From a virus, in the IMG/VR virus record IMGVR_UViG_3300045125_000107, positions 1-56,680 of that record: a stretch of 56,680 nt of DNA; one strand, 5' to 3'. Positions 8,032 to 10,326 of the stretch are shown piece by piece. The translations under genes and the position numbers were made by a program. Every line of letters starts with the position of its first letter. The stretch's first letter is position 1. Under the pieces are notes generated by a model. It made no database searches and was not told the origin of the DNA. It saw only the letters and a program-made list of their open reading frames with translations.

Positions 8032-10326
8032 GCCGCGACTTCGTCCCCCATGACTACCAGCAGAGGCGCTGGAGTGGCTCTACAGCCACCTCGCGCACTG
8101 CGCTGTGGATGCCTATGGGTGGTGGCAAGACAGCCACCACCCTGGACGTCCTTGACGCACCTCGAGTTGGTCGAAGACGTCTACCCAGTGCTGGTAGCTG
8201 GCGCCCGCTGCAGCCGCGCGGACTACTTGGCCAGACGAGGTGGCCAAGTGGGCCGGGCTGCGGCATCTGCGGGTACGCGTCATATCAGGGGCACGCCGAA
8301 GCAGCGCCTCGCGGCGCTGGCCGCGCCAGCCGAGGTCTACACCATGGCCTACGACAACCTCGCGTGGCTGTGCGAAACGCTGGGCGATGCGTGGCCCTTC
8401 GTCACGGTGATCGCTGACGAACTGACCCGGCCCGAGAGCTTCCGCATCCGGCAGGGCAGCAAGCGCGCGGGCGCACTGGGCCGCGTGGCGCACACGAAGG
8501 TCAAGCGCTTCATCGGCCTTCACCGGCACGCCCGCGCAAACGGCCTGAAAGACCTGTGGGGCCAGACGTGGTTCCCGACAAGGGCGAGCGGCTGGGACGC
8601 ACCTTCAGCGCCTTCGAGCAGCGCTGGTTCCGCCGGGGCTGGCGACGGCTACAGCCTCGCAGCCGCTCCCGCACGCGCAGGAGGATACAGGACCTGCTGC
8701 GCGACATCTGCCTCGACCGTCACCGGCCTCCCGGTGGACGAGCCTATCCGCAACCCGATCTACGTCGACCTGCCGCCTGGCCGCCCGGACGCTGTACAAC
8801 GACATGGAGGAGGAGATGTTCGCCGAGATCGGGGGAGAACGGGGCCGAGGCGGCGAACGCTGCGGTGCGCACTAGCAAGCTGCTTGCAGCTCGCCAACGG
8901 CGCGATCTACACTGGAGTGGATAGGGCTGAGCGAGGGTCCACGATGCGAAGTTGGAGGCGCTCGACAGCATCGTCGAAGAAGCCACCGGGGCAACCGGTC
9001 CCTGTGGCCTACAATTTCGGCACGACTTGAGCGCCTACGGCAGCCACTTCCCTAGAAGGTCGGGTGCTGGACGCTGACCCTGATACGATCAGGCAGTGGA
9101 ACGCCGGGCGGGATCGACATACTATTCGCTCACCCTGCGCGCCTACACCCAGCGACTGAAGTGTTGACTGAACATCGAGGGTGGGTCAGGATCCGTGGAC
9201 GCGATGCGGAACGAACGTGTGTTCGACGGGCGTCGACCCCAGGAGCCACAGTGGCTGCACGTTTTCGGGCATCAAAACCGTGACTGAGCGGTTCGGCACG
9301 CACCACGACGCCGGATCATAAGCTGCTCGTCAGCGGCGTTCGGGTGGAGGCCAAGGGATGTACGGAGATACCGAAAGCGCTAGGACGAGAAGCGGCGTAC
9401 ACCTACGCGGGAGATGACGCTACTCTTGGCGCGATGCTGTCATTGCGTGGCGCGGAACAGGTACTAGCGCAACAGCACGTCTGACAGTGGGCGAACAGGG
9501 CAGAAGCGGCAACGATGCCCCATCTGGGCGTAGAAGATACTTTTCACCGGATGTCGGACACGCGGTTTTATCGGATTTGGAAAAAGCATGAAAAGCCGCG
9601 CCACGAACCCGGACGACCTAGATTACCCGCGCTATGGTGGCGCTGGGCGGGGCATCCTCGCGAGGACTGGGCTGACATTCGAAAACTTCTTCCGCGACAT
9701 GCTTCTCGCTATACGCCGACCATCTCACCATCGAGCGCATGGACAACTGCGGGTACAGCAAGCAAAACTGCCGGTGGGCGACGAACGCAGAGCAGCAAAG
9801 CAACAAGAACAACAATCGGATGCTTCGGTATATGGGGCAGTACCTGCATCTGGCCGAGTTCTGCCGGATGACAGGCATCGGACGTGGCGCAGTAACATCG
9901 CGGCTAAACCGGGGCCTGACGCCGGAGGAAGTGGTGTCGGACTATCAAGCGTCATCGTACCCGAAGAACCGCAATCTCGGCGGTCTTCGACCTTGTAGAT
10001 TGTGGTCCCCGTCATCGGTTTGTTGTGCGCAATTGCGCAGGTGAGGTGTTCATCTCGCACAACTCCGGCAGGCCATGGGCTGAACCTCGCCGATGGCGGC
10101 AACATCTTGGCATTTTTCGGCCTGAACTGGTCCTCGAGGAAGCGCCATGCAGATCATCGAGCGCATAGGGCCGATGCGCCAGAAGCAGGCTGGGTTCGAC
10201 CGGCCCGTCTTCGTGCATTACATCATGGCGAGAAACACCGTGGACGACATGGTGTTTGACCGCCTCCAGTCGAAGAAGACCGTGCAGGAAGTCCTGCTTG
10301 AGGCGATGAAAAGGAGAGACAAATGA
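8024..10326 (+). CDS. SNF2-type DNA helicase, interrupted by an intein
   Basis: The two exteins together give about 460 aa. Near 8080-8150: PHDYQQ, ALWMP and the Walker A MGGGKTATTLDV. Motif II is VIADELTR (8407-8430), motif III FIGL-GTPA with frame slips (8511-8540). The C-terminal lobe shows DEPIRNPIYVDLPP, SKLLQLANGA(I), ADPDTIRQWNAG, FAHPA|SAGHGLNLADGG (motif V, split by the intein) and MQIIERIGPMRQKQAGFDRP (motif VI region), ending ARNTVDDMVFDRL to TGA 10324-10326. GTG 8024 is chosen because it overlaps the upstream stop and precedes a coherent N-terminus. Such enzymes remodel or unwind replication and recombination intermediates. Several indels. Confidence 0.8.
9140..10063 (+). CDS. intein with embedded HNH homing endonuclease
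   Basis: About 308 codons in the middle of helicase motif V. N-terminal splicing block: PATEVLTEHRGWVRIR (9149 on), then GCTFSGIKTVTERFG around 9250-9300. C-terminal block: FDLVDCGPRHRFVVRN, then AGEVFISHN ending in Asn at 10061-10063, followed by Ser (TCC) as the +1 nucleophile. HN|S is a standard intein end. The first residue should be Cys but reads CGC (Arg) at 9140-9142, one base from TGC. Splicing would join HPA to SAGHGLNL, a canonical helicase motif V. The N-terminal half has several indels. Confidence 0.8.
9551..9830 (+). CDS. HNH-type endonuclease domain inside the intein
   Basis: Reading MSDTRFYRIW, KSRATNPDDLDYPRYGGAGR, LTFENFFRDML, then IERMDNCGYSKQNCRWATN and EQQSNKNNNRML. The order MK.R..NP....Y..YGGRGI, F..F..D, .IDR.DN.GY...NCRWAT..(E)Q..N.R.N is a well known phage HNH endonuclease type, free-standing or within inteins and introns. 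The residues after it (LHLAEFCRMTGIGRGAVTSR) form a helix-turn-helix that probably helps recognise the target. It would cut intein-free helicase genes and so spread the intein. Confidence 0.75.

Follow-up and report, generated by a model that had tools for sequence, protein, structure and literature searches.

Inteins have been divided into full-length, mini and split forms (PMC7765530). In full-length inteins the intein polypeptide includes the endonuclease as one of its domains, in a region between blocks B and F of the Hint fold (PMC7765530; insertion site, PMC6801210). A 'hidden HNH' was reported for the ShiLan domain and Pacc40 gp60 of phage methylases by Arsenault, Gosselin and Gogarten in 2025 (PMC11855218). 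There the host frame of the phage gene remains open through the insert, an HNH endonuclease is encoded within it in another frame, and the distribution is that of a homing element. ShiLan itself has no splicing motifs, its in-frame product is unlike an intein (PMC11855218), and no ribosome-binding site is detectable. In GenBank, the HNH gene P46 of phage APSE-1 is nested in P45, and gp39 of phage SO-1 is nested in gp38 and called an intron. Split inteins with a free-standing endonuclease ORF between their halves, termed 'fractured genes', were reportedly described by Dassa et al. in 2009, a work cited in PMC3229294.

The element described here is, judged from its sequence, very probably a Hint-fold intein containing a complete homing-endonuclease gene that is out of frame with the intein. 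With full-length inteins it shares the Hint fold and the location of the endonuclease region between blocks B and F, but the endonuclease would be a separate protein encoded in an overlapping frame. The non-splicing hidden HNH of ShiLan and Pacc40 is the closest precedent. In contrast to ShiLan, the hidden gene is flanked on both sides by parts of a Hint splicing domain, so that the insert is removable in principle, the invaded genes encode polymerases, helicases and a probable terminase, and Shine-Dalgarno (SD)-like sites are common. The fractured genes also have an endonuclease gene, translated by itself, between the intein halves, whereas here the intein is one continuous frame overlapping the endonuclease gene. 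The inteins of phage DNA polymerases (APSE-1 P45/P46 and the 'intein-containing DNA polymerase precursor' of Jerseyvirus) belong to the same intein family; in the sources available their frame relation is not described as an intein architecture. In the openly licensed full-text literature we found no report of an out-of-frame endonuclease in a splicing intein, and older intein lists may note cases. An endonuclease gene hidden out of frame is an unrecorded layout for the standard intein list.

The locus is located in a virus record of 56,680 bases, the whole stretch of DNA that was analysed (referred to as the window). Frame breaks occur throughout the window; the sequence-only reading was right to suspect sequencing errors. 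Between positions 1 and 56680 there are 289 ORFs of at least 90 amino acids, mostly short, a pattern typical of uncorrected long reads; no tRNA was found. Because of the frame breaks the other genes of the window should not be judged from single ORFs. The SNF2-type phage DNA helicase gene at approximately 8035-10326 is made up as follows.

8035..9139, plus strand: N-extein of the SNF2-type phage helicase; start approximate, several frames (indels); from three-frame translation, phrog_62, DNA similarity to KcrB/RW and alignment with BPP-1 and KcrB gp059
9140..10063, plus strand: intein, 308 codons net; codon 1 is CGC (Arg), the end is HN, followed by Ser+1
9140..9370, plus strand: N-terminal half of the splicing domain with blocks A and B (ATEVLTEHRGW..., TTPDHKLLV); read in phase 2 except for a short part in phase 1
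9414..9998, plus strand: ORF of the nested HNH endonuclease, +1 relative to the intein frame; tblastn with the L001 HNH frame (E 2e-29), phrog_3377 (3e-25) and frame map
9582..9915, plus strand: HNH core and C-terminal helix-turn-helix-like segment; family profile iE 6.5e-5 (9582-9704) and 2.7e-16 (9703-9915)
9983..10063, plus strand: C-terminal half of the splicing domain with blocks F and G (VFDLVDCGPRHRFVVRN...FISHN); family profile iE 5.1e-15
10064..10326, plus strand: C-extein with the remainder of motif V (SAGHGLNL) and the region of motif VI; stop codon TGA at 10324-10326

The joined C-terminal helicase pieces matched phrog_62 (DNA helicase) at 2e-39, which agrees with the host gene proposed from the sequence alone; Pfam yielded no useful match when the window was searched piecewise by frame. 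The helicase DNA is similar to that of the Caulobacter phage KcrB/RW helicase, and the C-terminal half of the protein is approximately 50% identical to bbp47 of Bordetella phage BPP-1 and gp059 of KcrB, both of which are intein-free. The insert of 924 nt, a length divisible by three, lies between HPA (9131-9139) and S (10064-10066) in helicase motif V. Alignment with the two intein-free proteins, a comparison already proposed with the initial reading, located the uninterrupted site at exactly this place (HPASAGHGLNL in BPP-1, HPQSAGHGLNM in KcrB). The boundaries 9140 and 10063, and the proposal that the insert splits motif V and that its removal restores HPASAGHGLNL, were thus borne out.

Only one other public viral contig (L001) was found to carry an intein at the HPA/S site (here and below the slash marks the insertion point). 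Its sequence is clean: one unbroken frame of 841 amino acids comprises helicase, intein and helicase. The HNH endonuclease lies outside this 841-aa frame, in an overlapping +1 ORF of 230 amino acids. With the L001 intein as tblastn query an alignment was obtained over 9143-10063 of the window (E 5e-20). In the window the intein blocks are in phase 2 (9140-9196, 9302-9430 and 9983-10063). The C-terminal blocks VFDLVDCGPRHRFVV...FISHN matched the family profile at iE 5e-15, whereas the N-terminal pieces (9146-9196, 9241-9303 and 9302-9337) were each weak (iE 0.1-0.65) because of the frame breaks. The TxxH motif of block B is present as TPDH in the window and in the family, with T56 and H59 invariant in 56 aligned relatives. 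Blocks F and G read VFDLVDCGPRHRF...FISHN/S, with the terminal His-Asn and Ser at +1, and H324 and N325 are invariant in the aligned relatives. The initial reading was not confirmed for the first residue of the intein, which is Arg (CGC) instead of Cys. Cys1 is invariant in the 56 aligned relatives. The Arg codon is possibly a read error or the mark of a dead intein, and the window copy, with Arg1 and many frame breaks, may be inactive or merely misread.

The nested ORF of the window begins in phase 0, which is +1 relative to intein phase 2, and an indel near 9704 shifts it to phase 1. The ATG at 9414 is common to the window and L001 (REMTL), the true start being possibly further upstream. The phase-0 frame is closed by TAG (9996-9998) inside block F (DLVD), and the L001 HNH likewise ends in DLVN. 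The search with HNH profiles that had been suggested gave phrog_3377 for the window (3e-25) and for L001 (5e-47), and phrog_374 (1e-52) for L054, a member of the family. With the L001 HNH as sole query, a scan recovered nothing but L001 itself, and a PDB fold search with the HNH structural model gave no match; the assignment as HNH is based on the PHROG profiles. The HNH had initially been taken for a domain of the intein protein. This part had to be given up, as the HNH is in the +1 frame in the window, out of frame in L001 and in 116 other related inteins, and in frame in none. The mistake arose because the frame of the window jumps, so that hopping between frames by eye collects intein blocks and HNH core alike.

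Similarity of the insert to the Hint fold, whose absence would have spoken against an intein, was found with the family profile in the window and with structural models of L001. AlphaFold predicted the splicing halves of the L001 intein frame (approximately residues 1-80 and 293-325) with pLDDT 83-98 and the middle with 40-51; the HNH frame of the same DNA was predicted with pLDDT around 95 in its core. The leading Foldseek matches of the L001 intein model were all inteins or Hint domains (probability up to 1.00, E 2e-3), and the intein-frame profile matched PI-MtuI (3e-6) and NEQ068 (4e-6) in the PDB. TIGR01445 matched even the clean L001 intein only at 7e-4, below cut-off. Pfam and NCBIfam barely detect this intein family, so curated models alone would miss the intein.

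Related inteins were collected in two surveys. The query of the first included the shifted stretch, a possible source of bias; against this bias the second used only the first 70 residues (N block) of 14 inteins. An intein was counted as complete if N and C blocks were located in one ORF, both scans were pooled, and identical DNA was removed. Among the 125 complete inteins the HNH was at +1 in 76 and at +2 in 41, eight had no HNH, and in none was the HNH in frame. The one-ORF criterion selects for an open intein frame, and 9 of 134 N-block hits failed it: three of these resemble split genes, the others are broken or truncated. In the 125 inteins both halves are in one ORF and not, as in split inteins, in separate polypeptides.

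The arrangement occurs in isolated phages with the HNH at +1 (Caulobacter KcrB, Shewanella SFCi1, Streptococcus Javan101, Hamiltonella APSE-1 and Gardnerella vB_Gva_AB1) or at +2 (Sodalis SO-1, Salmonella LP31, Shigella EP23 and Pseudomonas MR14). Although GenBank places SO-1 gp39 (L169, 3078-3836) in a type I self-splicing intron, this gene is an intein's hidden HNH, encoded at +2. Eight loci were found in bacterial genome contigs, and all six HNH-bearing inteins, in five of these loci, have the HNH out of frame. The N block of the family is present in 192 annotated phage records; the nested HNH was unannotated in seven of the nine isolates examined.

The host proteins are family A DNA polymerases (several sites), SNF2-type helicases, a ResIII/DEAD-type helicase and a probable terminase. 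The SNF2-type helicases are invaded at K/CLQ, LQ/CNGA, LQIS/CG, LQVA/SG and HPA/S. That such helicases are uncommon hosts, as had been supposed, does not hold: at least 16 of the listed inteins are at helicase sites, as assigned by flanking motif, with five of the proteins checked by Pfam. In five family A polymerase ORFs (L112, L123, L050, L055 and L179) there are two inteins; the HNH is at +2 in the first and at +1 in the second, the latter HNH being truncated in L055 and L179.

Across the HNH core the intein frame was free of stop codons in all 117 HNH-bearing inteins, and the third frame in one. When HNH codons were replaced synonymously at the codon usage of the host gene, 4.4 open intein frames out of 117 were expected. 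Javan101, Gardnerella and APSE-1 have a lower GC content; for these, 12 to 21 stops were expected and none was seen. As a control, the Pacc40 methylase intein, whose LAGLIDADG-type endonuclease is in frame, has its other two frames full of stops. Median pairwise identity was 0.50 (+1) and 0.55 (+2) in the HNH frame, and 0.27 and 0.28, respectively, in the intein frame of the same DNA. In 33 close pairs, 362, 246 and 1034 substitutions fell on HNH codon positions 1, 2 and 3, and there were 461 residue changes in the HNH frame versus 1152 in the intein frame. Purifying selection acts on the HNH frame and is strong in most members. In this shared stretch the intein frame is unconserved, and in the L001 model it is predicted to be disordered. 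Since this middle part is open but neither conserved nor ordered, the intein seems to tolerate whatever the shifted frame spells, provided that it contains no stop.

The nested frames start at fixed nucleotides of the intein (188, 203 and 221 for +1, 93 and 99 for +2), mostly with ATG or GTG. The mean Shine-Dalgarno energy at these starts was -5.7 to -8.8 kcal/mol, compared with -2.3 to -2.8 for the remaining in-frame start codons. Because the SD-like sequence partly coincides with codons of conserved intein residues, SD strength cannot be treated as independent of what the intein encodes. A start codon with SD sequence was also present at one of the nested-start places in seven of the eight inteins that have no HNH. 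These sites agree with internal initiation, but do not prove it.

From the sequences we infer splicing, internal initiation, cleavage and homing, which could proceed as follows. The host gene would be read straight through, giving the N-terminal part of the helicase, the N splicing half, a linker, the C splicing half and the C-terminal part of the helicase, the long, disordered linker being the shifted reading of the endonuclease gene. The splicing halves would fold together, excise the complete intein and ligate HPA with SAGHGLNL, which would restore motif V. Separate initiation at an internal ATG or GTG preceded by an SD sequence, at +1 or, in other members, at +2, would give a free-standing zinc-finger/HNH/HTH endonuclease ending in or near intein block F. 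This free endonuclease would cut intein-free alleles and so bring about homing of the whole intein.

Other explanations have to be weighed against such an intein with a hidden gene. A conventional full-length intein whose HNH domain is in frame, with the frame difference in the window being only long-read noise, is suggested by the heavily broken frames of the window and by the review, in which inteins are either full-length with an embedded domain, mini or split (PMC7765530). It is nevertheless very improbable, because the relative frame is unchanged in clean contigs and in the genomes of isolates, among them four Caulobacter records that give the same match, and both frames are stop-free over at least 200 codons. 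The in-frame Pacc40 control, with stops filling its other two frames, looks quite different, and for the relatives an in-frame HNH is refuted (0/117). It is similarly hard to believe that the nested HNH is a decaying relic which by chance leaves the intein frame open. Decay is seen in some members (L055, L059 and L179 are truncated; L056, L065, L067 and L150 have no HNH), but most members have a full-length HNH ORF under strong purifying selection, and the intein frame is open far beyond chance, low-GC genomes included.

Phage HNH genes are often located in introns, and a group I intron with an ORF is what GenBank notes for Sodalis phage SO-1 gp38/gp39 ('type I self-splicing intron'). This explanation can hardly apply, as the host frame is free of stops and shows both splicing blocks together with the Hint fold. 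Rfam searches of L001, L004, L169, L170, L054, L081, L184 and the window gave no intron family above threshold, that is no group I or II signal and no conserved intron RNA core. A programmed frameshift from the intein N-half, without independent initiation, would yield an IntN-HNH fusion unable to splice. Frameshifting can reach +1 and +2 alike, and it would fit the observation that the beginning of the HNH frame is always downstream of the intein start, in block B or directly behind it. The fixed start codons with SD sites and the stop codon often present in the HNH frame shortly upstream of the start make a frameshift unlikely.

In the HNH tree each phase occupied one side of one branch (support 95), and in the intein tree there were few changes of phase label, so each phase was probably fixed once and then kept. 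Loss of the hidden gene can be seen at one polymerase site, where the inteins of L041 (4001-4936) and L056 (4922-5326), full and mini forms from one metagenome, are identical in DNA except for the clean loss of 531 nt (177 codons) comprising the HNH region. By this comparison L056 is a natural mini-intein allele of L041. In three further polymerase inteins (L057, 2733; L061, 2718-3733; L064, 695-1692) the N half, the HNH and the C half are in three different frames. The split-like frames were read for L061 and L064, at the site GRWGG/C...HN/SDSINMQNLPR. From their frames these three look like a split ('fractured') counterpart within the same intein family.

The ORF of a probable phage terminase large subunit (L152, 1396-6066) contains three inteins. 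Two belong to the main family and have a +1 HNH, and the third is of the PF14890/Hint_2 family, its +2 frame encoding a different nuclease, HNH_3 (3e-17). The PF14890 intein with a hidden HNH_3 at +2 was found again in L185, L186 and L187. Because of these terminase inteins the layout seems to have arisen more than once.

We consider it likely, on the sequence data, that hidden-gene inteins are a fourth, widespread phage architecture beside full-length, mini and split inteins, with an overlapping endonuclease gene, internal initiation, and splicing and homing by separate proteins that could be separately regulated or lost. It would have at least three origins (the +1 and +2 HNH clades in one family and HNH_3 in terminase inteins), and would offer a plausible road to split inteins. 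Intein annotation and some of the reasoning about homing endonucleases presuppose an in-frame endonuclease. In the Felix O1 genome paper, for instance, inteins were excluded by a frame difference (PMC3185647), a criterion which fails for hidden-gene inteins. One stretch of DNA must here satisfy two proteins, so that these are natural overlapping genes under unequal constraint. The layout would uncouple splicing from homing; L041 and L056 provide natural deletion alleles, and the layout suggests how fractured split-intein genes may have originated.
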